This document shows, piece after piece, positions 1-22,187 of a stretch of DNA of 22,239 nucleotides. The notes beneath the pieces were generated by a model, which saw only the letters and a program-made list of their open reading frames with translations, ran no database searches and had not been told where the DNA came from. The stretch is from IMG/VR virus record IMGVR_UViG_3300020121_000211, positions 1-22,239 of that record; one strand, given 5' to 3'. Position 1 is the first letter of the stretch; every line of letters starts with the position of its first letter. The DNA is from a virus. Position numbers and translations under genes: made by a program.

Positions 1-2
1 CA

Positions 3-602
3 TTTCTTGAGCTGATGACGGACAAGATGACACCCGAGCAGATCAACGAGATTCTCACACAGGAACAAGGCAAAGCATTCGAGGGTGACATCCTTGATTT
101 GTATAACGCTACATGTCGCGTGGAGATCGTCGCTGGTTCCAAACTCACGAGCCGTGATGCAGCAGCGCAACTCGCTCCTCTCATCATGCAGTTGATGCAA
201 GCGCAGCCGTTCCAAGACTCGCTTGCTCAGCAGGGCAAGAAATGGGACTACTACGGCTTCTTTGAAGACGTGATGGATCGCTTGGGCTGGGATGCTGATG
301 CCTTCGTTGTGAATATGACACCAGAAGATCAGCAACGTGCTGATGCTGCACAGCAAGGTGGTGCTGCTGCTAAAGCTCAAGTCTCACTCCTGCTCCAGCA
401 ACTCAAGGGTCAGCAGGCTATTGACCAAATTGATCGCAAGGGCGATGTGGCTCTTGCTCGTGATGGCGTGAAGGCGGTCTATAAGGGCCAGTCTGATCAC
501 ACGAACGCCACATTGGATTCCGCTCTCAGCCGTCAGGAAGCGAACCAAGAAGCACACAACGCGCTAATCGAGAGCGCAACAGAGAACCCAAATGGACAGT
601 AA
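3..602 (+). CDS. Portal protein, C-terminal end (5' partial)
   Basis: The reading frame is open to the left edge of the window, so the ATG at 15 is probably internal and about 200 residues of a longer protein are visible. The visible part is helical and acidic, with a conserved-looking stretch (CRVEIVAGSKL, then KKWDYYGFFEDVMDRLG) followed by a Gln/Ala-rich helical tail. This is what the end of a podovirus head-tail connector (portal) usually looks like. Position supports it: a scaffold-like gene and the major capsid gene follow directly. A portal forms the dodecameric ring through which DNA enters and leaves the capsid. The gene overlaps the next one by 11 bases. The portal call is inferred from context and general resemblance; the conserved core of the protein lies outside the window. 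Confidence 0.6.
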   Translation, partial: FLELMTDKMTPEQINEILTQEQGKAFEGDILDLYNATCRVEIVAGSKLTSRDAAAQLAPLIMQLMQAQPFQDSLAQQGKKWDYYGFFEDVMDRLGWDADAFVVNMTPEDQQRADAAQQGGAAAKAQVSLLLQQLKGQQAIDQIDRKGDVALARDGVKAVYKGQSDHTNATLDSALSRQEANQEAHNALIESATENPNGQ

Positions 603-852
603 TGTACGCAATCAGATCGCTGCAACCGTGAGCACTCAGGGCTGGGAATTTATCAAACAGCTTGGCGAGCGTCTCATCCGTGCGCAAGCAGATGTAGCAA
701 TCGAAGAAGAAGATGACACCAAGGGTGAACAGGAACGCCAAACGGCACGGGCACAAAAGCGTTTTTTCACCAACTTTATAAGGCTGGTACAAGCCGCCGT
801 TGAAGGTGAGTATGACCCGGAAGCGGAGAACATTAATGAGGTCGTATTTTAA
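592..852 (+). CDS. Small acidic/helical protein between portal and scaffold
   Basis: This encodes an 86-residue protein that I do not recognise. It starts inside the end of the portal gene (11-base overlap) and its TAA shares an A with the ATG of the next gene (TAATG at 850-854), so it is translationally coupled on both sides. The sequence is helical, with an acidic run (EEEDD near residue 40), a basic stretch (RAQKRFFTNF) and an acidic C-terminus. There is no membrane segment. Its place between portal and scaffold suggests a head-assembly role, but nothing in the sequence shows a function. Confidence 0.7.
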   Translation: MDSNVRNQIAATVSTQGWEFIKQLGERLIRAQADVAIEEEDDTKGEQERQTARAQKRFFTNFIRLVQAAVEGEYDPEAENINEVVF

Positions 853-1892
853 TGCCTGAAGAGATTTTGAACCAAGACGAAGTATCCCTGAATCAAGGGG
901 ACACATTTGACGCCAATTTGACAGAAGGATCGCTGGAGGAGCTAAAAGCTCAAGCGCTGAAAGCTTTTGCAAGTGCTGACCTGAATGAAATCCTTCCTGA
1001 AGCTGGTCAGCCTCGTGATGAGAAGGGACGCTTTATAGCGAAGAAGGAAGAAGACGCTGCTGAAGAGCAGACAGTCGAAACCCCTGAAAAAGAGGAAGAG
1101 CCGGAAGAGTACATCTTCGAGCAGGTGGTCGAGAACGCAAACGGCACCAAGCAGGTATTCCGTGGCAAAGGGGCTTCGGAAACTGAGGCATTGCAGGACC
1201 TGGTTCAAAAGCTGACGCAGGCTCAGACCAACGCAACGAAGAAGATCAATGAGCAGGAATCTCGCCTGAAGACCATCGTCCCGAAGGATGATTTCAAACC
1301 GAAGGAATATTCCAAAGAAGAAGAGTTCGTCATCTCGCAGGAGATGATGCAGAACCCCACCAAAGCATTCCAAAAGATGTTCAAGGACATGACTGGATAC
1401 GAGGTTACTGAGTTTCGCAGTAGCGTGGAAGCAGCAAAAGCTTACAACCAAGCGCAAGAAGAATCGCAAGCTACTTCTAATTTTATAGCTACGCACCCCG
1501 ATTATGAGACTACTCCTGCAAATGGCAAGAAGATGGTCAACTGGGTGAGAACCCAAGGCGATCCTCGAAAGTCAGTTCAGGAAAATCTCGAAGCAGCCTA
1601 CCAAGACCTGAAAGAGAGCGGATTGCTCAAACTCAAGGACGAGGCAGGGAGCACTGAACAGCCCACCACAGAAGAGGATACTTCGCGGATTGCGAAACCC
1701 TCCAACGTAGGAGCGACGCAGACACCGAAGGCACAGCCAGTGCCCGCTAAGAAAGCGAGTTCGATCACTCAAAAGGGTCGGGGAATCCCGGCACCAGCAG
1801 TGGACGAAGGCGCTAAGAGAGCAGAACTGGCAAAGAACCTGTCAACGGAAGAACTGCGGACTCTGGCGTACAAACACGCGGATCAATTCTAA
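852..1892 (+). CDS. Putative capsid scaffolding protein
   Basis: This 346-residue protein is highly charged, rich in Glu, Lys, Gln and Ala, and low in hydrophobic residues. A PRDEKGRFIAK motif near residue 55 is of the kind seen in phage scaffold and virion-assembly proteins. Acidic low-complexity (EEEPEE) and long predicted helices follow, and the C-terminus is Pro/Lys-rich and probably disordered. It lies immediately upstream of the major capsid gene, the usual scaffold position in podoviruses. Scaffolds line the procapsid and leave before or during DNA packaging. Start and stop are fixed by the TAATG overlap with the upstream gene. The assignment rests on composition, length and synteny, because scaffold sequences are poorly conserved. 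Confidence 0.6.
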   Translation: MPEEILNQDEVSLNQGDTFDANLTEGSLEELKAQALKAFASADLNEILPEAGQPRDEKGRFIAKKEEDAAEEQTVETPEKEEEPEEYIFEQVVENANGTKQVFRGKGASETEALQDLVQKLTQAQTNATKKINEQESRLKTIVPKDDFKPKEYSKEEEFVISQEMMQNPTKAFQKMFKDMTGYEVTEFRSSVEAAKAYNQAQEESQATSNFIATHPDYETTPANGKKMVNWVRTQGDPRKSVQENLEAAYQDLKESGLLKLKDEAGSTEQPTTEEDTSRIAKPSNVGATQTPKAQPVPAKKASSITQKGRGIPAPAVDEGAKRAELAKNLSTEELRTLAYKHADQF

Positions 1893-1908
1893 GCGCAGCA
1901 CCCGGTGA

Positions 1909-1938
1909 CATGGAACAGTCCATGGAGGACTAACTATG
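1909..1938 (+). promoter_or_regulatory. Hairpin abutting the capsid-gene ribosome binding site
   Basis: CATGGA (1909-1914) and TCCATG (1919-1924) form a perfect 6-bp stem with an ACAG loop. The final G of the stem is the first base of the GGAGG Shine-Dalgarno at 1924-1928, which lies 7 bases before the capsid ATG at 1936. The stem could modulate initiation or act as an mRNA 3'/5' boundary. No function is shown. Confidence 0.35.
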
Positions 1939-2928
1939 TCTCTAGCAACAGTAGCTTCAGTCGTATCGACTGGCTTAAATTCATTTCCTACACTTTATTG
2001 GGAAAAGGTTGGTCTGGACACCCTGACCGCGAACCTCTTTCTCTACGAAGCAATCGAGAAGCGCACCATGCCGAACCGCAGTGGTTTGGTCATGCGTCTT
2101 TATGACTTCTCTGCGATGAGCGCTAATACCACAGCAGCCACAGAAGGTACGCCTTCTACTGGTCAGTCTCTCACAGACAACACCCGTGATCTCACTCTCA
2201 GTCAGTACGGTGATTACATCAGTGTATCCGATGTTACGGACAAAACTCACATCATCGACCTGATGGGCGAAGCCAGTGGATTGCTCGGTTATCGTGGTGC
2301 ATTGACTGTGGACACAATCATCTCCACGGTTATTGACACCGCTGCAAACAGCGATTCAACGGCACGTATCGAAGTCAACGATGGAAGTTACATGACTGGT
2401 GCTATCAGCCGTAAGGCTGCGGCTCAGCTCCGTGCAAACAAAATCAAGACCAAGGACAATGGTTTGTTCTTCGGTGTTTGCCACCCGTTGGTCTCGTTCG
2501 ATCTTCAGAACGATACAGGCACTAACAGCGTGAGCGACCTCCAGAAGTTCTCTTCTGCTCTGGCGTCTAACAACCCTGCTCTCGTGGGCGTTCGCAAGAA
2601 TGCTTTCGTAGCACAGGTGGGTGGAGTCGAGTGGTACGAGAGCGCAGCGCTTCCTACGGAAACGCACTGGCAGTCGAGCGCCAACAACGGCTATCACAAC
2701 TACGTTTTCGGTCTGAACGCCTTCATCGGCGCATCGCTGGGTAACACTGCTCTCGGGCAGAAGAACTTCGCGGTTGGCGCAAAGCGCTTCAAGCCGGGTG
2801 ACAACGTGTTCGACATCGGTGGTCAGATCGCACTCGCAACTTTCTACAACTTTTTGTTTGGCTGCGTGAAGCGTACCGGATCAACCGCTGGGTATCGCAG
2901 AATCCGTTGCGAAAGCTCAATCGGGTAA
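1936..2928 (+). CDS. Major capsid protein, N4-gp56-like
   Basis: This 330-residue protein builds the icosahedral shell and is expected to have an HK97 fold. Sequence features of the N4-gp56 major capsid family are visible: an N-terminal TLYWEKVGLDTL segment, a TEGTPSTGQ motif (residues 69-77), QYGDYISVSD (90-99) and GYRGALTVDT (118-127). The length fits the family. The start is well supported by GGAGG at 1924-1928, 7 bases before the ATG. A strong hairpin with a T-rich tail follows the stop (2952-2976), so this gene probably gives an abundant, separately ended transcript. The scaffold-like gene lies directly upstream, the order used by many podoviruses. This is the most secure assignment in the left half. 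Confidence 0.85.
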   Translation: MSLATVASVVSTGLNSFPTLYWEKVGLDTLTANLFLYEAIEKRTMPNRSGLVMRLYDFSAMSANTTAATEGTPSTGQSLTDNTRDLTLSQYGDYISVSDVTDKTHIIDLMGEASGLLGYRGALTVDTIISTVIDTAANSDSTARIEVNDGSYMTGAISRKAAAQLRANKIKTKDNGLFFGVCHPLVSFDLQNDTGTNSVSDLQKFSSALASNNPALVGVRKNAFVAQVGGVEWYESAALPTETHWQSSANNGYHNYVFGLNAFIGASLGNTALGQKNFAVGAKRFKPGDNVFDIGGQIALATFYNFLFGCVKRTGSTAGYRRIRCESSIG

Positions 2929-2951
2929 ACAACATCAATAACCAAATTGGG

Positions 2952-2976
2952 GGGTGCCAAGCGGCACCCTCTTTTG
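2952..2976 (+). terminator. Intrinsic terminator after the capsid gene
   Basis: GGGTGCC (2952-2958) and GGCACCC (2963-2969) pair perfectly around an AAGC loop and are followed by TCTTTTG. A 7-bp GC-rich stem plus T tract 23 bases after the capsid stop is a typical rho-independent terminator, here on the + strand. Confidence 0.75.
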
Positions 2977-3007
2977 TTAGCTACCCAGCTCTTCCTTAGA
3001 GGACATC

Positions 3008-3331
3008 ATGGAAGAGCCACAAGCAGCGCAAGAACTTCCTCAGTACTACATCTTGAGCCGGGAGCTTCCCGAAGAGTATGCGGAACAAATTACCCGCATG
3101 CTGGGTATGCACCCAATCGTCTGCGTAATTGTTTCTTCCCTCATTGATGCCCGTTTGGGCTTTCGCATTTGCGGCAATGTGATGCGTCGTCGTGACGATG
3201 CTGAGGCTATTAACACAGCACAAGAAGTTGCCCAGCAAACAGGTAAACCCGCGTTAGTCATTGGCACTGCTGATTTCCTCGATGCCGTGTATCCAGACGG
3301 AAGGAGAGAAGCACTTGCCAAAACAGCATAA
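3008..3331 (+). CDS. Hypothetical protein, 107 aa
   Basis: I do not recognise this protein. It is soluble-looking, with a central hydrophobic strand (HPIVCVIVSSLID, about residues 35-47) and a C-terminal segment containing GKPALVIGTADFLDAV. A strong AGAGG (2998-3002) lies 5 bases before the ATG, and that AGAGG is the 3' arm of a short CTCT/AGAG hairpin. The gene is the first after the capsid terminator, which suggests read-through or a local promoter. Its end overlaps the proposed start of the next gene by 17 bases. A small head-completion or decoration role would suit the position, but the sequence does not show one. Confidence 0.65.
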   Translation: MEEPQAAQELPQYYILSRELPEEYAEQITRMLGMHPIVCVIVSSLIDARLGFRICGNVMRRRDDAEAINTAQEVAQQTGKPALVIGTADFLDAVYPDGRREALAKTA

Positions 3332-3866
3332 ACAGAAAGCACCAGCAGTGTTCGCTGATAGCGGACATCTGGGGGACAGAAACCTCGATGCACGGGGAGT
3401 AGTTGACAAAGCTACGGAAGAAAACCAAGCAATGACGGACAAGTTCCGCATTGCTGGGCAGGACGAGCTTGAGGATCAGGAGCGATCCGCCGGGCCGCGG
3501 ATGGAACCCAGTGAGTTCATTTGGCGCGTGAAAAAAGAAAATTCCCAAATCATTGTCAGGGACGGAGGCGTTCCGGGCGCAGTTGCTCTTTACGTCTACG
3601 TAGAGCCGTACTTACGAGAAGAGGGCAATGAAACCCAGCCTTTCAAGTATGTAGCAGGGTTTGAGTGGGAGCCGTTGCCAGAGTTCGCACACATCATTAC
3701 GGACTCGCGGGGCTTGCCCAAAAAAGAATATCGCGGCTGGAGATCGGTGTTGATCTCGCTCATTAAGGGCGGGGCACTGACTTACAGGCAAGCGGTAGAA
3801 GAGTTTGGAAACCCAACCGGGCAAAGAGCCGAAAGATGGTTCTCAGAGCTTAGAAATTACAGGTAG
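3315..3866 (+). CDS. Hypothetical virion-region protein, 183 aa
   Basis: I chose the TTG at 3315 as start because AAGGAG (about 3301-3306) sits at good distance before it; this gives a 17-base overlap with the previous gene. The frame is open upstream to 3261, and an ATG at 3432 is a weaker alternative. The N-terminal ~70 residues are charged and probably disordered. The rest contains a strand-rich part (YVYVEPYLRE) and a helical C-terminus with WRSVLISLIKGGALTYRQAVEEFG, resembling a small helix-turn-helix-like end. I do not recognise a family. The stop is TAG, used rarely in this window, and it lies within the ribosome binding site region of the next gene. Confidence 0.6.
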   Translation: MPKQHKQKAPAVFADSGHLGDRNLDARGVVDKATEENQAMTDKFRIAGQDELEDQERSAGPRMEPSEFIWRVKKENSQIIVRDGGVPGAVALYVYVEPYLREEGNETQPFKYVAGFEWEPLPEFAHIITDSRGLPKKEYRGWRSVLISLIKGGALTYRQAVEEFGNPTGQRAERWFSELRNYR

Positions 3867-3873
3867 GAAATAT

Positions 3874-4281
3874 ATGTCGGAAAAGAAAGAAGCAGTAAAC
3901 CCTAACGCATCAGTAACCATGGAACAGGTTTTGGAGCTTATCAAGACTTTGAAAGAACCTTCTCTCATGGAGAAGCGTCAGCTTGCGAAGGAAGAAGCAG
4001 AACTAGCAGCACGTCAGAAAGAGCGCGTGGAGAATGCACAACTAATTCTCCGCGAGGTTAAGATCAAGCACCAAGATCAGATGGATTGTACGCACAAGCG
4101 GGGTAATGGGCAGTCCCGTGCGGTTCACAATGCCAATCCCCCATTTTTTATTTGCCAGAAATGCCAAGCAGTGATCTTTCCCGGACCGGAACCCGCTGCG
4201 GAGCAACGTATCCCCGGTGCGTTCTATGACACCCGTATGTACACCGAGCTTTTGCAGTCCACTCGTTTGACTGATTTCTAA
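3874..4281 (+). CDS. Small protein with zinc-ribbon-like motif
   Basis: This encodes 135 residues from the ATG at 3874, which is preceded by AGGTAGGA; the frame is open further upstream but that part overlaps the previous gene. The N-terminal two thirds is a long charged helix (KRQLAKEEAELAARQKERVE) likely to form a coiled coil. It is followed by a Cys/His cluster: CTHKR, an intervening His, then CQKC about 25 residues on. This CxH...CxxC arrangement is typical of a structural zinc site. A helix plus zinc-ribbon could bind nucleic acid or act as a structural accessory protein. The family is unknown to me. The noncoding structured segment begins immediately after its stop. Confidence 0.65.
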   Translation: MSEKKEAVNPNASVTMEQVLELIKTLKEPSLMEKRQLAKEEAELAARQKERVENAQLILREVKIKHQDQMDCTHKRGNGQSRAVHNANPPFFICQKCQAVIFPGPEPAAEQRIPGAFYDTRMYTELLQSTRLTDF

Positions 4282-4287
4282 CAAAAA

Positions 4288-4488
4288 TTCGTAGCGGTGT
4301 CCGATACGGCTACTTCTGGAATGAAGCCGCAAGGCTGGGGGTTTCGACACCCCCGTTCCGTATCACTTGTTCCCTACGAGATTTAACTCACGGCGTCCGG
4401 GGTTGCTAACGCGGAGCGATCCGCCCGCCGTTCAGTCAGGACAGACCCGGAAACTGCTGACTTTCAGCCTCTAGTTAGAGGCATTTTT
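4288..4488 (+). ncRNA. Structured RNA or 5' leader element before the tail adaptor gene
   Basis: This is the only gap of about 200 bases in the late operon, and it folds well by hand. TCGTAG (4289-4294) pairs with CTACGA (4374-4379). Inside it GATACGG (4303-4309) pairs with CCGTATC (4358-4364). Inside that lie AGCC-GCAA-GGCT (4325-4336, GNRA-type tetraloop) and, directly adjacent, GGGGGT/ACCCCC (4337-4342 with 4349-4354). A second domain has CGGCG (4391-4395) with CGCCG (4426-4430) enclosing GCGGA-GCGA-TCCGC (4411-4424, another GNRA-type loop). It is followed by AGTCAG..CAG pairing with CTG-CTGACT (4434-4462) and a terminator-like GCCTCT/AGAGGC hairpin with a T tract (4467-4488). TCCGGG (4396-4401) is complementary to CCCGGA (4446-4451), allowing a 6-bp pseudoknot or kissing contact. 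I do not recognise a known RNA class. It could be a cis-acting leader/attenuator or a free small RNA. Confidence 0.55.
4467..4488 (+). promoter_or_regulatory. Terminator-like hairpin containing the adaptor gene's RBS
   Basis: GCCTCT (4467-4472) pairs with AGAGGC (4477-4482) around an AGTT loop, followed by ATTTTT. It has the form of an intrinsic terminator, yet its 3' arm AGAGG is the only good Shine-Dalgarno for the gene starting at 4493 (11 bases away, or 5 bases from an alternative TTG at 4487). It may end transcripts, hide the ribosome binding site, or both. Confidence 0.5.
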
Positions 4489-4492
4489 GCAG

Positions 4493-5536
4493 ATGGCACT
4501 AACCACGTTAACACTTCAATCTCTACTCAATTTCGCGAGCATTCACACGGATTTGACTCCCTTCTCTGGAGGTGCCTACGGCATTGATCCGGGTTTGCAG
4601 ATTTGCAACGATGCGATCTCTTCTCTGTTGTTAGCTCCGTATGACTGGGATTTCAACCGCAAGGAAATGCCGTTCTTCGTCACTGCTCCCAACCGTCAAG
4701 ATTATCAGTTCGGTGGGGCAACGGTTTTCAGTCTTGGTTCCACTGCACAGGGCTTTGGTGTAGGACTCGCAACGAATAGTGGCGTCAGCACCAGTGGTGG
4801 AGTTGTCACTGTCACGACTCTTGAAACTCATCGTTTCGCAGTGGGTGACGTTGTTTACTTCAACAACCGCATTGCCCTCACAGGCAATTCCGCAAATGCA
4901 ACCAAGTACAACGCGATTTTCACGAACAACGGAAGCACGAGCACATGGTCTGGTGGATTTACCGTAGCGACTGTTCCCAGCACCACGACATTCACATTCA
5001 CCGCTGTCAGTGGTCAGAACAATGGCGATGCACTGGGCGCATCGGGCATTACGGATTTCGGTTGGCTGACTGATGCGTCAACGGTCAGCATCACGGACAC
5101 TGCTTCTCCTCGCGTCATTCGGCGCATTCAGGCTGTTAGCCAGATGCAGCCGAACTCAGATGTAAATGATCCGCAGAAAGTTTGTGTGCTCACCGATAAC
5201 GGTGACGGCACAGTGAAGCTCAGACTTAATCAGCATGCGGGTCAAACCTCATGGGCTGCATTTGCGGTTTACCAAGCCAAACCTCCGTTGAAAGTTGCTT
5301 TAACCGACAAGATTGATCCATTCCCTGATCACTACGCTTCAGTTGTGCGTCAGGCTGTCATTGCCCGTGCCTACAGGCTCATCAATTCGCAGCGTGCAGA
5401 AGTAGAGTTCCAAAAGCTTCAGCAGGAAATTCAGCGTGCGCTCATGGCGAATGACCGTGAAGCAAGTGCTGTCAACATCGTGCCGGAAGACGGCGGGCTT
5501 ACGGGTTGGCAGGCGTCCCCGTTCTGGAGTTACTGA
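4493..5536 (+). CDS. Head-tail adaptor / tubular tail protein A-like
   Basis: This 347-residue protein occupies the place of the podovirus adaptor that binds under the portal (T7 gp11-like, or gp4-like). The N-terminal helical part contains an invariant-looking PYDWDFNRKEMPFFV segment (about residues 49-63). That combination of a Trp-rich turn, a charged strand and NRQDYQF is typical of this family. The C-terminal helix bundle (AYRLINSQRAEVEFQKL) also fits. Residues roughly 95-190 look like an inserted beta domain rich in Thr, Ser and Asn. The ATG at 4493 is preferred; a TTG two codons upstream has a closer ribosome binding site. The gene ends in TGATG with the nozzle gene, whose GGAG ribosome binding site lies in its last codons (Trp-Ser-Tyr). 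Confidence 0.6.
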   Translation: MALTTLTLQSLLNFASIHTDLTPFSGGAYGIDPGLQICNDAISSLLLAPYDWDFNRKEMPFFVTAPNRQDYQFGGATVFSLGSTAQGFGVGLATNSGVSTSGGVVTVTTLETHRFAVGDVVYFNNRIALTGNSANATKYNAIFTNNGSTSTWSGGFTVATVPSTTTFTFTAVSGQNNGDALGASGITDFGWLTDASTVSITDTASPRVIRRIQAVSQMQPNSDVNDPQKVCVLTDNGDGTVKLRLNQHAGQTSWAAFAVYQAKPPLKVALTDKIDPFPDHYASVVRQAVIARAYRLINSQRAEVEFQKLQQEIQRALMANDREASAVNIVPEDGGLTGWQASPFWSY

Positions 5537-7365
5537 TGCCTGCAAATGTTCGCAATTTAGAACGCAACGGACTGTATATAAATCGCTGGAACACGGGCGA
5601 AGTCAGTAACCGCTCCCCGATCTTCACGCCTTTTTCTGCAATGGGATTGCAGATGCTCAGCCGTCAGGATGCTTTCCTCACGGGCTTGAACATGGAAATC
5701 AGTCCGCAGATGACGGCTGTGCGCAGCTATGGGTTTTCTCGCTATTGCAGTGCAGCGTTCGGATCAAGTGATTTTCCGCTTGGTGGATTCAGCTTCAAGA
5801 ACATCGCTGGAACCATCACACCGTTGGTTGATTGCCCCACCAAGGTCGTGAAGTTCACCACCAGTGCCCAGACCACAGTTTTCAGCAAGTCTGTAACAAC
5901 GCAGGGCAGCTTCTCCAAGGTTGGTGATTACTGCTATTACGTCGATGGCACGGATGCGAAGAAATTCAATGCTGCTCTCACGGTCAGCGGCATCGGTATC
6001 ACCGCGCCTGCCTCAGCCCCGAGCTTGAGCTTTGGTGCAGGAGCACTGAGTCCTCTGCGTGGGTATGTGTACGTGTATGTGTACCGCAACTCCACCACTG
6101 GACACGTAAGCACTGCATCACCAGTCAGCGCAAACACCGGGGCACTCACGAGTCAGAACATAACCGTGCATTACACCGCATCGAGCGATGCACAGGTGGA
6201 CAAGATTTGGATTTTCCGCACGCAGGATGGTGGTGGGCAATTCTATTTCCTCACTGAAGTCGCAAACGCAACTTCGACCTTCACAGACTCAACAGCAGAC
6301 AGCGGATTGAATACCGCTATCGTCGCTCCTGTTGCTCACGCCAATGACCCCATTCCCAGTGGTGCGGGTTTGCTGGTGTGGCATGCAGGACGGCTGTGGG
6401 TCGCATCAGGCAACAATCTTTACTTCAGTGCCGGCCCGGACGCAACTCTGGGCAACGGTGCAGAAGCATGGCCCCCGGCAAATGTCTTTCCTTGCCCCGG
6501 CAAGATCACAGCACTGCGCAGTACCTCAAGCGGTCTGGCTGTTTTCACTGCTGACAACCTCTACGTGGTTTATGGCGTGGATGCCGCGTCATTCACGGTG
6601 CCCCAACTCTGGCAAGCGAACTTCGGTGTGCCGGATCAGAACCATGTGGTGCAGGACGGCGATCTGCTGTTCATGTACACGAGCAAAGCGCAGTGCATGC
6701 AACTAACTGCAAGCGGTTTTGAAGAAATCGGCAGCATGATCGGTAAGAGCCTCAGAACAAATTTCACACCGGGTTCCTGCTATCTCGCGCTGCACCGTAG
6801 CGGTGAGGATCAAGGGCTGTGGATCAGCAACGGCAGCACGAAGATGCGCCGTTATTCCTTCAATACAAATTCATGGGACGTTGAGCGTCAGGTAGTAGGT
6901 GGTGCGGGTGCTGTGTTCAGCATTGAAGCCACACTCGCGAACTGGGTGCTCTTCACCGGGCGCACAACGGGCAGTGGCTTCATCTTGGGTCGTGACACAA
7001 CCACATATCAGGATGATGGTCAGAATTTCACATGCACCGCCACTGTCGGAAGTTTGGTGGTTGCTCCTCCGGGCGGTACAGCGCCGATTGACTCTGTGCT
7101 CTTGCAGGTTATGCCCGTGGGCACATATCCGACTGTTGGCATCCTCGCGAATGAAATCAGCGGAACATTCACCACATTGCCTAACCCAGTGAACGATCCA
7201 CCGCTCCTGTTGCCAAGCAGCACGATTACGCAGAAGCGCCATTACCTCTTGGCAGCGACAACCGCAACTCCACTGGATATGTGTCATTGCCAAATTCAGA
7301 TCAGCTTCATTGCAGAAAACGCTCGTGCCGAAATTTTGGGTTTGGGTCTGGGGAACAAAGTTTAA
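5536..7365 (+). CDS. Tail nozzle / tubular tail protein B-like, propeller-rich
   Basis: This 609-residue protein starts at the ATG in the TGATG overlap; the open frame extends 10 codons upstream into the previous gene. After an N-terminal FSRYCSAAFGSSDFPLGG segment comes a fibronectin-like region (GYVYVYVYRNSTTGHVST). Next are repeated blades of the kind WHAGRLWVASGNNLYFS, LAVFTADNLYVVYG, DLLFMYTSKAQCMQL and GLWISNGSTKMRRYSFN. Such repeats suggest a beta-propeller, the central fold of T7 gp12 and P22 gp10 nozzle proteins. Location after the adaptor gene agrees. The protein would form the DNA exit tube and the platform for fibres. The exact homologue family cannot be decided by eye. It is coupled to the next gene by TAATG. 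Confidence 0.6.
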   Translation: MPANVRNLERNGLYINRWNTGEVSNRSPIFTPFSAMGLQMLSRQDAFLTGLNMEISPQMTAVRSYGFSRYCSAAFGSSDFPLGGFSFKNIAGTITPLVDCPTKVVKFTTSAQTTVFSKSVTTQGSFSKVGDYCYYVDGTDAKKFNAALTVSGIGITAPASAPSLSFGAGALSPLRGYVYVYVYRNSTTGHVSTASPVSANTGALTSQNITVHYTASSDAQVDKIWIFRTQDGGGQFYFLTEVANATSTFTDSTADSGLNTAIVAPVAHANDPIPSGAGLLVWHAGRLWVASGNNLYFSAGPDATLGNGAEAWPPANVFPCPGKITALRSTSSGLAVFTADNLYVVYGVDAASFTVPQLWQANFGVPDQNHVVQDGDLLFMYTSKAQCMQLTASGFEEIGSMIGKSLRTNFTPGSCYLALHRSGEDQGLWISNGSTKMRRYSFNTNSWDVERQVVGGAGAVFSIEATLANWVLFTGRTTGSGFILGRDTTTYQDDGQNFTCTATVGSLVVAPPGGTAPIDSVLLQVMPVGTYPTVGILANEISGTFTTLPNPVNDPPLLLPSSTITQKRHYLLAATTATPLDMCHCQIQISFIAENARAEILGLGLGNKV

Positions 7366-10205
7366 TGGACGACAATTTCACATTAGAACAATCGCAGCTT
7401 CTCATTGACGAGAAGGTGTGGCGTCCTACGCGGCAATTTGGGCAGTCGTTGGATGATCTCGCGATCCGTAACAATCTCAATCGCGTCACTTCGCTTGTTC
7501 TGCAACCGCCTATAACCACACCGCTACAACCACCGGACACCAGCGGCACCAACAATATTCCGAGTCACCTGTTGAGTCTCAGTGCAACTGAGACTCCCAC
7601 TGTGGTGCAGGGTGGAACGATGAGTGAAGTCAGCGTCAGCTTCACGTATGACGCGACTGATCCAAATTTTGCAGGCATTCACATTTGGTTCAAAGGGTAT
7701 AAGGGCGATCCAAATCCTCAGTTAATGACTGATGGTGTTACCAGCCCCACGAGCTTCATTGTGGAGACAACGGGCGAAGCCGTTACGGTATTGGCTCAGC
7801 CGTTCAACACCAGTTATCAATCTGCTGATCTGTCATTTGCTTCGACTACAACTGTCTTGCTGGATGGCGTTATCAGTGCTCCCCCGGCTCCCAGTATTGC
7901 GCAGACTCTTGTCACCACTCCAACGGGATTGCAGTTTGCTTTTAACCAAGAGGGCGGGCTACTCGCGGATGTGATCTCGTGTTACAAGGTGTACCACAAC
8001 ACCACCAACAGCAGTGGCAGCGCAACCGTTTATCAAACTTTTCCGCAAGACCCCAAGAACGTGGGTCAGATCGTGGTGCAGGAAACTCTGCCCAATGGCA
8101 CGATCATGTTTTATTGGGTCTCTGCTGTTAACACCAGTGGTCTTGAATCTTCTCTCACAGCAGTGAGCGGAAGTGGTATCCCCAGCGGTCTTGCAATCGC
8201 TGGTGACAATCTTGTTCGCAATGGTGACTTCAGTGCGGGCCTGGCTAACTGGACTGCGACCAGCAGCACGAGCGAAATTTTCAGCGGTGTCTCCAACCTT
8301 CCTGTTGGCAACACAGAACTGAAAACCAGCGCCTCCAAAGTGCTTGAAACGGATGATTTCATTCCCATTGATCCGAATCGCAGCTATTTGATGTCCTGCT
8401 GGGTGAGGCTCGCCTCGAATACGAGCGGCAACTTTTACGGTGGATTGAAAGAGTATGACTCCACTAAGACTGGCATCACGCATGTGACTGCTGGTAATGA
8501 TTCGGCTTACTGTTTGTTCCGCAACATCACCAAAACATCCGGTAACTCTGGTTCCGAACCCAGCACTAACGGATTCCAGTTCTTTCAGGGCATCATCAGC
8601 GGCCCGATGGTCAGCCCCGGTGCGACTCCGGCTCCCGGTATTTTCCAATTTGCGTCTGGCACTCAGTACGTGCGTCCAAGGTTCTTCCTAAATAACACCG
8701 GAACTCCGCAACAGATCGAAATTGTGAACGTGCGTCTCTCTGCTGTTGAAGCTGTGTCACAGCAAGCGTACATGAAGGCGAGTGGCATCAACCTTATAGC
8801 AAACTCTGATTTTCTTGGTGGGTCTTCCAGCGGTTACAGCGTGTATGACAACAACAGCACTGGCAACGTCACGATCAGTGTTGTGACAGATTCCACAGCA
8901 CCCAACAGTACGGGAAAAGCATTACAGATAAGCACAGCAGCAGGCACCGCTCCAAATCCGGGGCTGGGGGGATTCTTCGTAGCTCTCCCTGTGGACAGCG
9001 GCACTTTGCAGCTTGGCAGCTACCACAAGGGGGATCGTCTGCTATTCCGCCTGAAGGCGAATATTCCCGAAGGCGGAACCCTGCACTACAACACGAATGC
9101 TTATGGTGACAGTGGCACAATCCGGTGGATCACCGGACAGGCGGGGCGTGGTCAGTATGTGGACTACATGGTGCTGGTGACCCCCGGTGCATCAGGCTCA
9201 TTCAGCACTATTGGGTTTTTCTATCTTGATTCCACTCTCACTGCTCCACAGACATGGAAAGTCGCTGTTTTTGAAGCGGTTGATCTTGAGCATCAGCAAT
9301 TCACCAACAACGTTTATCAACTGACTCGTCAGGGAGTGAGCACTTCGCTACTCACGCAGGGTTCGATCATCCCTACACAAGCATTCACGATCACATTCAC
9401 ATCAACGAGCACCAGCTTGAGCTTGAGCTGGTCCTCCGCGACATTGTTCCGGTCGGATGGAAGCACTTTTGTTGTTGCCAGTGGGACTAAAAATTACACG
9501 TCTTTATCTTCGTCAACAACTTATTACATTTACCCCTACATTGACCTCGTCAACCTCGTGATCGCATTCACGAACCCCACACCTCCGGGCACCAGCATTA
9601 ACTCCACACAAGCAGTGGAGTGCAACTTCGACCTTCGCAGCGGACTATCAGCGATGGTTCTCACAACCCCGGCATCCGGTGGTGGTGGAGGATCGGGCGG
9701 TGATGGCGGATCGGGTGGAGGTGGTGCCCCGTGCCCTGAAGAAAACGAACTGGTTGAAGTACTCCGTGTACAGAATGTTCATGGTAAGCACATCACGGTT
9801 GTTCGTGATGGCAGAACGCTAACGGTTAACCCGCATGAAGTCCTTCCATCCGATGGTCAGATTTTACAGATCAAAGTTGGCACTATTAATCCGCAAACCG
9901 ATCTCCTCAAAGGTTACAGCTTCAAACACCAGAAGGACGTTTACCGTCGCTTAAAAAACAAACATCTTCGTGGGTGCGCTGCTTGGCGAATTGTGGACGG
10001 TTACAAAGTCACACCTTGCGAACCGATTTGGAAAAACAATCAGTGGATGCCCGCGTATAAAGCACCGGGTGCCGTCATTGATTACAGCGTTGGGATTCGT
10101 GTTGATCTGGTGGTGGATACGGGAGCAGACGAAGAACACAACTACTACGTGGTGGGACGCGGGGAACCACTATTGATCCACAACTTCTTTGTGCTGCCCT
10201 GCTAA
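7365..10205 (+). CDS. Large tail protein with C-terminal Hint-like domain
   Basis: This 946-residue protein starts at the ATG in the TAATG overlap (the frame is open 28 codons upstream). The N-terminal ~70 residues look like a virion-attachment segment. Beta-rich domains follow: a fibronectin-like block (SVSFTYDATDPNFAGIHIWF), another with VSAVNTSGLESS, and two carbohydrate-binding-module-like jelly rolls (NLVRNGDFSAGLANWT near residue 285 and NLIANSDFLGG near 485). A glycine/serine linker at about 771-788 leads to Cys790 and a ~150-residue C-terminal module ending ...NYYVVGRGEPLLIHN. The terminal His939-Asn940 after a YYV strand is the signature of the last block of Hint/intein domains. The middle block reads KVTPCEPIW where TPxHPV is usual, so a His seems lost, and Phe follows the Asn. 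It is probably a tail or adhesin protein; the processing activity is uncertain. Confidence 0.6.
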   Translation: MDDNFTLEQSQLLIDEKVWRPTRQFGQSLDDLAIRNNLNRVTSLVLQPPITTPLQPPDTSGTNNIPSHLLSLSATETPTVVQGGTMSEVSVSFTYDATDPNFAGIHIWFKGYKGDPNPQLMTDGVTSPTSFIVETTGEAVTVLAQPFNTSYQSADLSFASTTTVLLDGVISAPPAPSIAQTLVTTPTGLQFAFNQEGGLLADVISCYKVYHNTTNSSGSATVYQTFPQDPKNVGQIVVQETLPNGTIMFYWVSAVNTSGLESSLTAVSGSGIPSGLAIAGDNLVRNGDFSAGLANWTATSSTSEIFSGVSNLPVGNTELKTSASKVLETDDFIPIDPNRSYLMSCWVRLASNTSGNFYGGLKEYDSTKTGITHVTAGNDSAYCLFRNITKTSGNSGSEPSTNGFQFFQGIISGPMVSPGATPAPGIFQFASGTQYVRPRFFLNNTGTPQQIEIVNVRLSAVEAVSQQAYMKASGINLIANSDFLGGSSSGYSVYDNNSTGNVTISVVTDSTAPNSTGKALQISTAAGTAPNPGLGGFFVALPVDSGTLQLGSYHKGDRLLFRLKANIPEGGTLHYNTNAYGDSGTIRWITGQAGRGQYVDYMVLVTPGASGSFSTIGFFYLDSTLTAPQTWKVAVFEAVDLEHQQFTNNVYQLTRQGVSTSLLTQGSIIPTQAFTITFTSTSTSLSLSWSSATLFRSDGSTFVVASGTKNYTSLSSSTTYYIYPYIDLVNLVIAFTNPTPPGTSINSTQAVECNFDLRSGLSAMVLTTPASGGGGGSGGDGGSGGGGAPCPEENELVEVLRVQNVHGKHITVVRDGRTLTVNPHEVLPSDGQILQIKVGTINPQTDLLKGYSFKHQKDVYRRLKNKHLRGCAAWRIVDGYKVTPCEPIWKNNQWMPAYKAPGAVIDYSVGIRVDLVVDTGADEEHNYYVVGRGEPLLIHNFFVLPC

Positions 10206-10215
10206 GGAAAACAAC

Positions 10216-10560
10216 ATGGCAATGAAACAAGCGCAAGCATGGTTCTTATCGCAATTTTATGACGATCCGCTTCACGTAGCGGGGCAACTTCCTGTGTGTA
10301 CGGCATACGGCACCACATTTGGATTTCATCGCCCTGATGGAAGTGATTGGGGACTCGTGCTGATGTATACCACGCCTCCACAGATCGAAGCAGCAAAGCA
10401 GGATGAGCGCGTCGTGTTCTGTGGCACTGGTTACAGCAAGCCACCTGAGCAAGTGCTGAGTTGCTACGCCTCATACCTTGATCCGCAGGAAACATACACA
10501 AGCATGGGACAGATGTTAGCGAAGCTCGCTGAGACTGAACCCCTGTTTATGCACGACTAA
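10216..10560 (+). CDS. Hypothetical protein, 114 aa
   Basis: This is an unrecognised small soluble protein. The ATG at 10216 is chosen because AAGGAAA precedes it at normal distance; the frame continues upstream into the end of the tail protein gene. It shows a possible core of strands (TAYGTTFGFHRPDGSDWGLVLMY) and a helical C-terminus, with no membrane segment. It is followed after 4 bases by the next gene, with TAAGGAAATGATG giving that gene's ribosome binding site. Its place between the tail protein and the ejection genes suggests a tail or assembly accessory role, by context only. Confidence 0.65.
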   Translation: MAMKQAQAWFLSQFYDDPLHVAGQLPVCTAYGTTFGFHRPDGSDWGLVLMYTTPPQIEAAKQDERVVFCGTGYSKPPEQVLSCYASYLDPQETYTSMGQMLAKLAETEPLFMHD

Positions 10561-10564
10561 GGAA

Positions 10565-11017
10565 ATGATGAAAAAGATCAAAGCAGAAATTTTGCCGATC
10601 ACTGAGATGTCACAACAGGACATCCAGATTTTTATTGATTGGGTCTGGAAGATGCGGCACCTCAATTGGTTTGATCCGCAAGTGTTGAGTTACCCCCGCA
10701 CGGTCATGTGCAGAGCGGACAACGGTGAGGAGCCTTTGCTCTACATACCGTTGCAGTCCGTGCTCATGTGGGACGCCATTGCGCCGAAGCCCGGTCTCAC
10801 TCCTCGTCAAGAAGCCATGTGTCTGTGGCAGATCGGAGAAGCGGTTAACCAAGCCATGGAGGCTACGGGACATCGGGAAGCATATTTCTTCACTGCGGAT
10901 GATCGGGTGGCTGATATTTGTGCTCGTCATGACTTCGAGGAGTTACGGGGTATCAGGGTATTGAGACGCAAGGCAAAACCGCCAATTTCCAACCCTTCTA
11001 CAGAGGCAAAAGAATGA
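10565..11017 (+). CDS. GNAT-like protein, 150 aa (tentative)
   Basis: The C-terminal part has the look of an N-acetyltransferase end: a helix (LWQIGEAVNQAMEATG), a strand (EAYFFTADDR), then helix and strand ADICARHDFEELRGIRVLRR, which fits the GNAT pattern of a terminal 'GF' turn followed by a strand. The N-terminal half has IPLQSVLMWDAIAPKPGLTPRQEAM, where a GNAT would have its acetyl-CoA loop, but no clear Q/RxxGxG/A motif is visible. It may therefore be an inactive or divergent acetyltransferase fold. Two ATGs (10565, 10568) are available. The stop overlaps the next start by ATGA. Confidence 0.5.
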   Translation: MMKKIKAEILPITEMSQQDIQIFIDWVWKMRHLNWFDPQVLSYPRTVMCRADNGEEPLLYIPLQSVLMWDAIAPKPGLTPRQEAMCLWQIGEAVNQAMEATGHREAYFFTADDRVADICARHDFEELRGIRVLRRKAKPPISNPSTEAKE

Positions 11018-11904
11018 AGGGGAACTGGATTAACACCAAAATTGAGATGGATTGGGACGGAAATGTCCTCTACCGCGAGGGGTACGAGTGGTTTGGGGGG
11101 ACTGCCCAATGTAAGGGGGATGATGTTGCCAAGCAGCAGGAACAACAGCAACTAGCTTTCAACCAGCAGCTCTCCTCTATTTTCCAACAGCAATTTGCGC
11201 AGCAATCTGCTGTCTTGCAGTTTTTAAAAGGGAAATTGGAACCTCTCATCGACAACCCCACTGGGTATGACCCCGTGGCTCTTAGCGCGATGCGTACTGG
11301 AGCAACAGACGCCATTTCGCAGCAATATCAGAATGCACAGAAGGCGCTCAATAACCAACTCAACTCTAAAAACGGCGGGTCAGATTTACCGAGTGGCGTA
11401 GACGCACAGATTCAAGGCGGGTTTCAACAAAGCCAGGCCCAAGATCAGGCAAATGCACAGAACACCATCACGCTGAACGATGCCAACCTCAAGAACACCA
11501 ACATGTGGAACGCCTTCAATGTGCTCAGTGGTAATGTCGCTTCTCAGTTCAACCCCTTGGGTTACGCAGGTGCGTATAACCAAGGCTCAGGAACAGTTGC
11601 GAATCTCAGCCAAGCCTACACCAACTCACGGCAAAGCGGTCTACTGGGTGCTCTCGGTGGTGTCACCGGAAGTCTGCTGGGTGCAGCGGGTAATGCTGGT
11701 GGGTTCGGCTCCCTGTTCTGCTGGGTAGCAGCAAGCTTTTTCGGTTGGAACTCCGAGAAGACCTGTCACATTCGTCTGTGGATGCTTGCGAAGGCTCCCG
11801 GATGGTTCCGCAATTTTTATATCAATCACGGTGAGTGGATCGCTTCCACTCCTCTACGCTGGGCTTTTCGTCCGCTATTTGAAGCCGTGCTCTGGAGTTA
11901 CTAA
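11014..11904 (+). CDS. Putative ejection (internal virion) protein with C-terminal membrane-like domain
   Basis: This encodes 296 residues, starting in an ATGA overlap. Residues 40-65 are a glutamine-rich helix (KQQEQQQ..FNQQLSSIFQQQFAQQ), followed by more Q/A/N-rich helical sequence. A Gly/Ala/Leu-rich stretch (LLGALGGVTGSLLGAAG) could insert in or cross a membrane. The last ~62 residues form a compact Trp-rich module (FCWVAASFFGWNSEKT...WRFxP-like end) resembling a small conserved end-domain seen on several phage proteins. Such composition is usual for podovirus proteins ejected ahead of DNA to form a channel across the envelope. It is coupled to the next gene by TAATG with the GGAG ribosome binding site in its last codons. 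The function is inferred from composition and synteny. Confidence 0.55.
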   Translation: MKGNWINTKIEMDWDGNVLYREGYEWFGGTAQCKGDDVAKQQEQQQLAFNQQLSSIFQQQFAQQSAVLQFLKGKLEPLIDNPTGYDPVALSAMRTGATDAISQQYQNAQKALNNQLNSKNGGSDLPSGVDAQIQGGFQQSQAQDQANAQNTITLNDANLKNTNMWNAFNVLSGNVASQFNPLGYAGAYNQGSGTVANLSQAYTNSRQSGLLGALGGVTGSLLGAAGNAGGFGSLFCWVAASFFGWNSEKTCHIRLWMLAKAPGWFRNFYINHGEWIASTPLRWAFRPLFEAVLWSY

Positions 11905-14875: not shown

Positions 14876-17830
14876 ATGCCCACCACCCCCGGCGTAACGA
14901 TCACAGGCACACTTGAAAATCTTGCAGGCAGTGCCAATGCAGGTCAACTTTTTTGGACACTGGTAAATTATGGAGATTTTCCGCCTGAGGTATCGGGTAC
15001 AGCGATTATTGCAGCCACAGCGGTGACGACCCAAGCAGCAGGAGATGGCACTTTCAGCCAAACCTTATGGGGCAATTATCAGATCAGCCCCAGTGGAACT
15101 TTTTATCAGTGCAAAGTGGTTGGAGCGGATGGCTCTCAGATCATCGTTGCATCTTTTCAATTCAATTCAGCAGGTTCTTTTGATCTCAGCACATTGGTTC
15201 CGATCTCCGGTTCCACGCCTCCATTCTTCATCCCCACAGCAGTAACATCTTTTAATGGCAGGACTGGAACTGTTGTATCTGTAAACGGAGATTACAATTT
15301 CTCCCAGATCAGTGGCACGGTAGGGGCTTCGCAATTACCCAACCCCAGTGCGACTACATTGGGCGGCGTAGAAAGTTATGCAGCCGTAACGCACCAGTTC
15401 CTCACAAGCATCAGTACGTCTGGTGTGCCTGCGTCAGCTCAACCAGCGTTCACGGATATTAGCGGCACGGTAGCAGCAGGACAACTCCCCACTCCCACTA
15501 CTTCGAGCCTCGGTGGAGTACAGGCTGTCAATGCCGTATCACATCAATGGATCAACAGCATCAGTGCTCTGGGTGTCCCAGCGTTAAGTCAACCAGCATT
15601 CACAGATATCAGCGGAACACAGACTGCGGGGCAGCAACCCAGCACAACTGTAAACGCAGTCACAAATGACACCAACATCACCGGGGCAATCGCCTCCCAG
15701 ACTTTGACACTGGGTTTCACGGGCACCGTAGCTGCGGGACGGCTCAATTCAAATGTTGTGCAGTCGGTTGTGAATGACACCAATGTCACGGGAAGCATTG
15801 CAGCACAAGCCCTCACATTGGGGTGGACAGGAACTCTTGCAAAAGGGCGCACTCTGGCAACCACCGTTTACACGGATCAGACCAACACGTTTGGAGCATT
15901 CCTGCAAAAGTTTCAAGCAGGTGCGAACTTTGATCTGGTCGATCCAACGGACACAACCAAAATTACTCAGTTTGATCTGAGCCACATTACCACGGGGACA
16001 ACTCGAACCGTCAATGTGCCGGACGCCAACAGCACCACCGTGCAGAGTTCGTCTGCGGGGTCACACCAATTTGCAACGGGAGTGAGTGCTCAAGGTGTGG
16101 TCTCTTATGCTCAGCCTGCGTTCACTGACATCAGTGGTACGGTAGCAGCGTCACAATTGCCCAACCCCAGCGCAACCACGCTTGGCGGTGTGGAGAGCAT
16201 CGCAGCCGTTTCACACAAATGGATCAACTCAATCAGTACGAGTGGTGTTCCCAGCCTCACACAGCCCGCAGCAGCGGACCTGAGTGACGGTACTAATGGC
16301 TCTGGCTCAGTGGTGTTAGCGACATCGCCGACCCTGACCACTCCGAACATCGGAGCTGCTACCGCTACCAGCATCACAGGTTTGACAGGAGCGGTCACGC
16401 CGAATGCCGCTGGAGGGACTGATGTCGGATCGGCTGCAAAGCCGTTCGCCAATCTGTATGTTGGTGGAAGTGCAACGAACAATATCAAGATTACAGGAAC
16501 GGCTTTAGCTGCAAGAACTTTTACCCTTCCTGATGCAGATTCTGTAGCTGTACAGCCTTTTGGTGGGTTGGGACATCAGTTCGTTACATCAATCCAAACA
16601 AACGGTGCAGTAATTTCTGCCCAGCCTTCTGTTGCTGATTTGAGTGATGGAACAACCGGGTCTGGCAGTGTGGTTCTGGCGACATCCCCAACCCTCGTCA
16701 CGCCAACTTTGGGTGTAGCCTCAGCAACATCAATCAACAAGGTGGCGATCACCGCTCCGGCTACGGGTTCAACCCTGACGATTGCGAACGGCAAAACGCT
16801 TACCGCAAATAACTCACTCACGTTTGCCGGAACGGATGCCACAACCCTGACCTTCCAAGCAACCGGGACTGTCGTCAATCGCGATTCAACCGATACGCTG
16901 ACTCACAAGACGATTGATACTGGGGGCACGGGGAACCACATCCAAATTGCGGGCGTCGATCTTCCGAACTCCATTGGCACGAGCGGTCAAGTGCTCACGA
17001 ACAGCAGCGGGGTATTAGCATTCACAACGGTTTCTGGCGGTGGAGGCGGAACTCCGGGCGGGGCTACAAACAGCATTCAGTACAACACAGGGAGCACGTT
17101 TGGCGGTGAGATAAGTCTGTCCCCAGCGGGCACTTTGTCGCCCAATGCTTCGTTCAAGAGTTCCATAAAAACTTTCAGTTCTACCGGGAACAATGACATC
17201 TACACCTGTCCCGCGAATAAACGGGCGATCATCACCGAGATGACGGCTTTCAATGGTCATGCGACTAACTCGTCATCAATGGTTGCAATGCTGAAAATTG
17301 GCGGGGTGTACTACCCTGCAACTCCATCAACTTCCATCATCGCTCAGAGCACGGGTACGCGGTCGGTCACTTACGTCCTTGAGGCGGGTGAGACCATTGC
17401 GATCAACATGACGCAGCAGCCGTTCAACGTAGTGGTCAGCATCATGGAGTTCGACAATACATCAAACCTGAAGTCCGCGAAGGTGACAACTTCGACACTG
17501 ACCTCAGGGGACAATACGATTTACACCGTGCCAAACGGCAAGTCCGCGCTGGTGCTCAACAACACATTGACCATGTGCAGCGGCACCCAAGGGACATTCA
17601 CTGCTGGGAACAACTCAGGCGGGAACGTTACTTATAAATGGAACGTCGTTCCGAGCGGAGGATCAGTGGGCACGAACAATCAGATGTCTGCATCCACGAC
17701 CATCAGCACCGGGGCTGGAAGCAGCCAGACTCTCACAAGTTTTTCAATGGGGGCTGGAGATTTCATCAATGTGAATCTGAGTTCTGGTACAGCAGACCAA
17801 ATCGCCTTTGTGACGGTCGTGGAAATGTAA
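14876..17830 (+). CDS. Tail fibre / receptor-binding protein with repeats
   Basis: This 984-residue protein is low in charge and rich in Thr, Ser, Gly, Ala and Val. Its N-terminal ~130 residues (beginning PTTPGVTITGTLENLAG) look like an attachment domain. Four copies of an ISGTxxAxQxP...LGGV...SISxxGVPxxxQPAFTD unit start at residues 145, 195, 245 and 419; the first three are exactly 50 residues apart. Two copies of DLSDGTxGSGSVVLATSPTL begin at 468 and 588. Both kinds are common in the stalks of phage tail fibres. A glycine-rich hinge near residue 720 precedes a ~260-residue C-terminal part of two similar beta domains (ending with a DQIAFVTVVEM strand), probably the receptor-binding tip. The ribosome binding site lies in a hairpin. 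Receptor specificity cannot be told from sequence. Confidence 0.75.
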   Translation: MPTTPGVTITGTLENLAGSANAGQLFWTLVNYGDFPPEVSGTAIIAATAVTTQAAGDGTFSQTLWGNYQISPSGTFYQCKVVGADGSQIIVASFQFNSAGSFDLSTLVPISGSTPPFFIPTAVTSFNGRTGTVVSVNGDYNFSQISGTVGASQLPNPSATTLGGVESYAAVTHQFLTSISTSGVPASAQPAFTDISGTVAAGQLPTPTTSSLGGVQAVNAVSHQWINSISALGVPALSQPAFTDISGTQTAGQQPSTTVNAVTNDTNITGAIASQTLTLGFTGTVAAGRLNSNVVQSVVNDTNVTGSIAAQALTLGWTGTLAKGRTLATTVYTDQTNTFGAFLQKFQAGANFDLVDPTDTTKITQFDLSHITTGTTRTVNVPDANSTTVQSSSAGSHQFATGVSAQGVVSYAQPAFTDISGTVAASQLPNPSATTLGGVESIAAVSHKWINSISTSGVPSLTQPAAADLSDGTNGSGSVVLATSPTLTTPNIGAATATSITGLTGAVTPNAAGGTDVGSAAKPFANLYVGGSATNNIKITGTALAARTFTLPDADSVAVQPFGGLGHQFVTSIQTNGAVISAQPSVADLSDGTTGSGSVVLATSPTLVTPTLGVASATSINKVAITAPATGSTLTIANGKTLTANNSLTFAGTDATTLTFQATGTVVNRDSTDTLTHKTIDTGGTGNHIQIAGVDLPNSIGTSGQVLTNSSGVLAFTTVSGGGGGTPGGATNSIQYNTGSTFGGEISLSPAGTLSPNASFKSSIKTFSSTGNNDIYTCPANKRAIITEMTAFNGHATNSSSMVAMLKIGGVYYPATPSTSIIAQSTGTRSVTYVLEAGETIAINMTQQPFNVVVSIMEFDNTSNLKSAKVTTSTLTSGDNTIYTVPNGKSALVLNNTLTMCSGTQGTFTAGNNSGGNVTYKWNVVPSGGSVGTNNQMSASTTISTGAGSSQTLTSFSMGAGDFINVNLSSGTADQIAFVTVVEM
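15308..16279 (+). repeat. Tail-fibre 150-bp repeat units
   Basis: Units start at 15308, 15458 and 15608 (spacing exactly 150 bases) with a further diverged copy at 16130. Units 1 and 4 are most alike, sharing ISGTV.AASQLPNPSATTLGGVES at protein level with many silent differences. The third unit keeps the start but then diverges. This is internal duplication in the fibre gene, not a separate element. Confidence 0.65.
16277..16732 (+). repeat. Second fibre repeat pair (DLSDG units)
   Basis: Two copies about 95 bases long begin at 16277 and 16637, 360 bases apart. They encode DLSDGTNGSGSVVLATSPTL and DLSDGTTGSGSVVLATSPTL, with numerous third-position differences. Protein-level conservation with silent divergence implies an old duplication kept by selection. 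Confidence 0.6.
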
Positions 17831-20669: not shown

Positions 20670-20852
20670 TCATGATCTCTTGCTGGAGGGTCTCACCCAC
20701 AGCGTTATCAGGATCAAAAACAGCAAACCCCGAACAGTAACAAGCTGATCAAATACCGCACTGAAAAATGACCAGCACACCACCGTCAAAATGACAGCGG
20801 CAATCAGCACCACGCTGGGCCAGTTCTGTTTGAGATAAGTACGGAATGTCAT
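20670..20852 (-). CDS. Small two-helix membrane protein downstream of integrase
   Basis: This encodes 60 residues with two hydrophobic stretches, roughly residues 12-32 (PSVVLIAAVILTVVCWSFF) and 36-54 (LVTVRGLLFLILITLWV), separated by a short polar turn. The C-terminus is basic (RPSSKRS), so both ends are probably cytoplasmic. Its ATG overlaps the integrase TGA (ATGA at 20849-20852 on the minus strand), a coupled arrangement that supports real expression. The role is unknown; superinfection exclusion or a holin-like function are possibilities with no direct evidence. Confidence 0.55.
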   Translation of the reverse strand: MTFRTYLKQNWPSVVLIAAVILTVVCWSFFSAVFDQLVTVRGLLFLILITLWVRPSSKRS

Positions 20853-21958: not shown

Positions 21959-21970
21959 GGTCTCTCCCTG

Positions 21971-22006
21971 AGGGCATCAGCGGTGTCTCTTAGATGCCCT
22001 GTTTTT
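21971..22006 (-). promoter_or_regulatory. Inverted repeat in the integrase leader
   Basis: AGGGCATC (21971-21978) and GATGCCCT (21993-22000) form a perfect 8-bp inverted repeat with a 14-base loop. It lies 13 bases upstream of the integrase ATG. On the plus strand GTTTTT follows it, giving terminator form against transcription coming from the left. For the integrase it is a 5' hairpin or a protein-binding site. Confidence 0.5.

Positions 22007-22187
<181 letters not shown>

Follow-up and report, generated by a model that had tools for sequence, protein, structure and literature searches.

A hairpin over the Shine-Dalgarno sequence of a phage head-to-tail adaptor gene, at the end of an unconserved intergenic gap

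The late operon of an uncultivated virus, known from a contig of 22,239 bases (the whole stretch analysed here, termed the window), contains a noncoding gap of 211 bases directly 5′ of a head-to-tail adaptor gene. The gap ends in a probably regulatory hairpin of an ordinary kind, and the body of the gap is unconserved. With a probability of about 0.5, the gap serves the adaptor cistron as an untranslated leader and lowers the adaptor relative to the capsid protein, the gap body being a spacer.

The gap and its gene neighbourhood

The gap and the features around it are the following.

1936-2928, plus strand: major capsid protein gene (PHROG 1357, E 3.5e-18; Pfam PF25209), on the capsid side of the late operon
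2949-2976, plus strand: terminator-like hairpin directly 3′ of the capsid gene (stem 2949-2972, then TTTG)
3874-4281, plus strand: small gene upstream of the gap (translation, Shine-Dalgarno-based start, orthologues in relatives)
4282-4466, plus strand: gap body, untranslated, apparently lineage-specific, with stable hairpins (fold; covariance models R1 and R2 without a junction match in relatives)
4325-4354, plus strand: GCAA-capped hairpin (4325-4336), directly followed by a GGGGGT/ACCCCC hairpin (4337-4354; pair probabilities of the two 0.83-1.0)
4467-4488, plus strand: hairpin GCCTCT-AGTT-AGAGGC over the adaptor Shine-Dalgarno (SD) sequence, then ATTTTT (fold; arms recur in relatives L132 and L123, with a trace in L122)
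4493-5536, plus strand: head-to-tail adaptor gene (Pfam PF24175 SU10_adaptor)

The gap (4282-4492) extends from the upstream TAA, which ends at 4281, to the adaptor ATG at 4493. The initial annotation had described it as noncoding, as conspicuous in a tightly packed operon and as situated between capsid-side and tail-side genes, and all three descriptions hold. There are no plus-strand open reading frames of at least 60 amino acids within the gap and no frame is open across it; a small coding gene was rejected, as no frame supports one. At most other late-gene junctions, the genes either overlap or lie close together. The gap is preceded by a small capsid-side gene and followed by an SU10-type adaptor gene, whose Pfam score of 27.7 bits is barely above the cut-off of 27. 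The reading frame of the small gene opens at 3805, and ATG 3874 is the probable start, chosen on the basis of its SD. Its product has two cysteine pairs (CxxH-like and CQKC) and may be zinc-finger-like. Downstream of the adaptor is a head-closure protein gene, and its best match among cultured phages is to Tunturi_3, a phage of an acidobacterium.

A search for a sigma-70-like promoter within the gap found none. ARAGORN reports only a tRNA-Asn in the window (22113-22187, minus strand), and a tRNA or tmRNA in the gap was rejected. The topologies of HDV-like, hammerhead and group I RNAs do not fit, as judged by eye only. The gap was also set aside as a duplicate of the upstream gene (plus strand, 64/300 shuffles; reverse strand, 278/300) and of the adaptor gene (plus strand, 7/300; reverse strand, 77/300).

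Elsewhere in the window, the tRNA-Asn adjoins a phage integrase reading frame (20849-21976, minus strand; Pfam Phage_integrase below cut-off) that is broken by an in-frame stop. This frame represents either a broken gene or a sequencing error, and the tRNA-Asn beside it is likely an integration site. At 15299-16251, within an open reading frame of 984 amino acids (14876-17830), a 131-nt repeat is present three times, the copies being 60-70% alike.

The hairpin over the Shine-Dalgarno sequence

A terminator-like hairpin holding the ribosome binding site of the next gene had been pointed out at the end of the gap, and folding bears this out. The order in the window is GCCTCT-AGTT-AGAGGC-ATTTTTGCAG-ATG. 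The hairpin (4467-4482) is followed by ATTTTT, and the GAGG inside it is likely the adaptor SD. The stem is formed by six pairs, four of them G-C, with pair probabilities of 0.85-0.98, and is weak at about -8.0 kcal/mol. The mean probability that the SD is unpaired is 0.01. This is the lowest accessibility of the 17 window genes that were given an SD (21 genes examined in one scan), and the next most buried SDs are those of two other window genes (0.03 and 0.07).

Located just 5′ of the start codon, this 6-bp hairpin would bury the adaptor SD and thereby reduce ribosome loading. The adaptor, of which few copies per virion are presumably needed, would then be produced at a lower level than the capsid protein. 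The stop codon of the upstream gene is 211 nt away, and therefore translation of that gene would be unable to open the hairpin by coupling. In the window phage, part of the transcription may in addition be terminated at the T-run. The other ∼185 bases would constitute a lineage-specific spacer with stable, unconserved hairpins. An attenuator setting the head/tail expression ratio was one of the roles proposed for the whole gap; that proposal survives for the last hairpin, which may be a step that sets the adaptor/capsid ratio, and falls for the gap body.

Recurrence of the hairpin in relatives

Relatives were not obtained by single-protein searches of viral contigs with the adaptor, the capsid or the head-closure protein, nor by searching genome contigs with the adaptor or with an alignment of head-closure proteins, and 3805-5000 has no DNA similarity to phage records. 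An alignment of the head-closure protein with its Tunturi_3 counterpart led to 56 loci, and better alignments led to near relatives that have the same gene order. These are relatives at the protein level and are not close in DNA. There are 11 distinct near relatives: L059, L063, L115, L118, L119, L120, L122, L123, L126, L128 and L132 (L060 has the same values as L063 in the comparison). Their capsid proteins are 42-63% identical to that of the window (a partial comparison for L120 and L126).

Arms of the form GCCTC(T)/(A)GAGG(C) are found directly 5′ of the adaptor ATG in three of 12 junctions, those of the window, L132 and L123. The L132 junction (8910-8981) is 72 nt long, has the order CCGAATGCCTC-TGTA-GAGGCATTCGG-AAC-ATG, and displays an 11-bp perfect hairpin over the SD; its z score is -6.45. 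In L123, CCTCT-ATT-AGAGG is found just before the adaptor gene. L122 shows a trace, in that TAGAGGCATT is kept, with a 4-bp CCTC/GAGG pairing. The hairpin is absent in the other eight near relatives. Since the L132 and L123 hairpins have no T-run, the property shared is burial of the SD, not termination. At the sequence level, the missing T-runs would make a translational role more likely than termination.

Local alignments of the gaps were compared with those of 300 shuffles, with 28 pairs tested and eight at or below 15/300. None of the shuffles were as good for the pairs window-L122, L123-L132 and L132-L122, and eight were as good for window-L132 and likewise for window-L123. A similarity of the window gap body to the L126 gap (6/300) was rejected, since 28 comparisons should yield about one pair of this kind. 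The last 26 bases 5′ of the adaptor start appear to be the only part of the gap that has convincing kin. Hardly any compensatory changes are available in the hairpin, and conservation of the SD itself accounts for half of the shared letters. A three-protein tree groups the window with L115 and L119 (support 94/93, not starred), although it is poorly resolved and the window branch is long. L115 and L119, the nearest on the tree, have no hairpin; thus the hairpin was lost there, was gained more than once, or was exchanged.

Turnover of the junction

Gaps between the small gene (or the open reading frame in its place) and the adaptor gene differ widely in length between near relatives. They are 3 bases in L118, 6 in L128, 10 in L063, 22 in L120, 72 in L132, 80 in L123, 97 in both L115 and L126, and 99 in L119. 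The gap in L122 is 632 bases and has a NUMOD3 homing-endonuclease-like open reading frame of 173 amino acids at 4760-5281, and that in L059 is 491 bases and has two orphan open reading frames at 7787-8296. A gap RNA of ∼200 nt is thus not found in these relatives, nine of the 11 gaps being only 3-99 nt and the other two holding open reading frames. Absence of the gap in relatives is one of the results that the initial annotation had set against its own proposal, and a structured RNA of ∼200 nt is therefore unsupported. In a wider set, where the gap was taken to the nearest upstream open reading frame of at least 50 amino acids, 53 junctions remained after identical ones were removed. Fifty of these, including that of the window, were measurable; the median gap is 12 and the 211 bases of the window are the largest. 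More distant relatives have gaps of 60-164 nt with hairpins of unrelated sequence. In L120, a tRNA gene (3784-3856) is found between the adaptor and head-closure genes.

Judged from these sequences, the junction appears to be a site of gene gain and loss, and its length and content would turn over quickly, with a range of 3 to 632 nt. This raises the question of whether the gap body is what is left of an insertion, for instance of a homing-endonuclease gene plus flanking sequence or of small orphan genes, and has no function itself. The L122 and L059 genes at the same junction and the wide variation in gap length are in keeping with such an origin. However, the two L059 open reading frames have no match of meaningful score in any frame of the gap, and no target-site repeats were recognised at the gap. 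We regard a remnant as unlikely. It would concern the origin of the gap and is compatible with a leader function.

The gap body as a structured RNA

The initial annotation viewed the gap as a discrete, functional structured RNA of ∼200 nt with a regulatory or packaging role, of no known class. The absence of a known class is confirmed: no Rfam 15 family matches the gap at the gathering score, and none matches 4182-4592 even at E 10. Covariance models of the two gap halves, R1 and R2, matched only the window among 70 sources, with none in the 69 relatives. R1 found nothing in six whole virus records. In seven nearer loci, the two models gave a single weak match, of R1 (E 0.25), which lies on the L118 minus strand and outside the junction. 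R1 and R2 were built from the window alone, and single-sequence models have low power, so that these results signify no detectable homologue and are not proof. As far as these sequence searches go, the gap body (4282-4466) appears to be lineage-specific.

The gap folds only mildly better than chance. The predicted RNA has a free energy of -76.9 kcal/mol and a z score of -2.78, with 3/200 shuffles as good (6/500 in a second run), and the minus strand folds about equally well (z -2.43). Among 185 equally long segments of the contig, the gap ranks tenth. Of the nine that fold better, eight are wholly in open reading frames; the other (2881-3091) takes in the terminator 3′ of the capsid gene. The helices were said to total over 40 base pairs; the minimum free energy structure has 69, but this is not distinctive, as the shuffle mean is 63 and 40/500 shuffles reach 69.

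Of two hairpins reported with GNRA-type tetraloops, the GCAA hairpin (4325-4336) is near-certain in the ensemble, as is the GGGGGT/ACCCCC hairpin. The GCGA hairpin (4411-4424) is present in its letters only, its stem being absent among pairs with a probability above 0.2. A kissing or pseudoknot contact between TCCGGG and CCCGGA had also been suggested, but these segments form an ordinary nested helix (probability 0.66-0.70) and a kissing contact is unnecessary. The pairing would be a pseudoknot only alongside a competing ACGGCG/CGCCGT helix (0.24-0.28). In addition, the helix 4303-4309/4358-4364 (∼0.47) is rivalled by pairing of 4295-4309 with 4233-4246, in the last part of the upstream coding sequence (∼0.48).

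A discrete structured RNA could draw on the z score, on the pair of GNRA hairpins whose stems reach 4 bp or more (found in 1/500 shuffles, counted post hoc) and on 12 perfect 6-bp inverted repeats, a number reached by 15/500 shuffles. Against this, the RNA was found in none of the relatives examined, its fold energy is unexceptional for the contig, it has competing folds that involve the end of the upstream gene, and the gap has neither a sigma-70-like promoter nor an Rfam match. Such an RNA is quite improbable. More speculatively, 4282-4466 might be a young, lineage-specific regulatory domain that switches the adaptor SD hairpin between closed and open. Its parts would be the GCAA hairpin, a multi-helix junction, an optional pseudoknot and the helix competing with the end of the upstream coding sequence, and the trigger might be, for instance, ribosomes finishing the upstream gene or the binding of a phage protein. 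We give this switch, its proposed parts included, very little credence.

Transcription termination at the junction

Termination at the same site is a tentative alternative to a translational leader. Here the hairpin and ATTTTT would form an intrinsic terminator, and only a part of the polymerases would pass from the head genes into the adaptor and tail genes. The pattern fits: the hairpin is G+C-rich and a T-run comes after it. U-tailed hairpins of -10 kcal/mol or lower are found within 150 nt 5′ of the adaptor gene in 6/47 relatives vs 17/400 random windows, a mild excess. The window hairpin misses this energy cut and is outside the 6/47; its weakness speaks against termination. Nor is a terminator kept at this junction in the near relatives, since the hairpins common to L132 and L123 lack a T-run and four of the 11 gaps (L118, L128, L063 and L120; 3-22 nt) leave no space for one. 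Terminator-like patterns are also frequent by chance: a scan of 1-11200 gave 15 sites, compared with 11.9 in shuffles.

The hairpin directly 3′ of the capsid gene is strong (10 pairs, seven of them G-C; -18.7 kcal/mol). If attenuation sets a gradient of transcripts, this stronger terminator would be its first step. By a strict test, a U-tailed hairpin directly 3′ of the capsid gene is found in 5/16 loci (the window, L059, L063, L067 and L082), and in none of the 16 is one found in the 150 nt 5′ of the capsid gene. Several other loci, e.g. L065, L087 and L090, have a stable hairpin after the capsid gene without a T-run, as seen by eye.

Comparison with known phage systems

A hairpin at the ribosome binding site is reportedly found in mobE of phage Aeh1. 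In phage T4, genes e, soc, 49 and I-TevI have SD-sequestering helices, and as in the window, the helix directly 5′ of the start buries the SD of a gene on a long transcript (PMC3014915). A late promoter inside the helix of e and I-TevI yields transcripts without the 5′ arm, in contrast to the window gap with no sigma-70-like promoter found. The window gene also differs from these four in that it encodes a structural adaptor.

Phage T7 has a terminator, Tphi, after the capsid gene, with a similar read-through role to that of terminators in phiX174. The phiX174 terminators allow read-through and step down structural transcripts, a precedent for termination between structural genes (PMC9135205). 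The window resembles both phages in having a hairpin and T-run between capsid-side and connector/tail-side genes, but its hairpin is weak and the L132 and L123 forms have no T-run. The terminator after the capsid gene (2949-2972) fits this class better than the adaptor hairpin does.

T4 gene 32 has a leader pseudoknot that functions in autoregulation, and is like the window in having a structured leader, with a possible pseudoknot, 5′ of a phage gene (PMC3014915). Unlike gene 32, the window pairing is better read as a nested helix, there is no A+U-rich operator, and the adaptor protein shows no sign of RNA binding.

Biological significance

As this gap shows, folding that is mildly better than chance in one contig does not amount to evidence for an RNA family. 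The L132 junction is better suited than that of the window to a test of SD sequestration with a reporter. If the leader interpretation is right, the window represents another phage that sets the dose of its head-to-tail connector through a buried ribosome binding site, in a phage group that is poorly known and mostly uncultivated.
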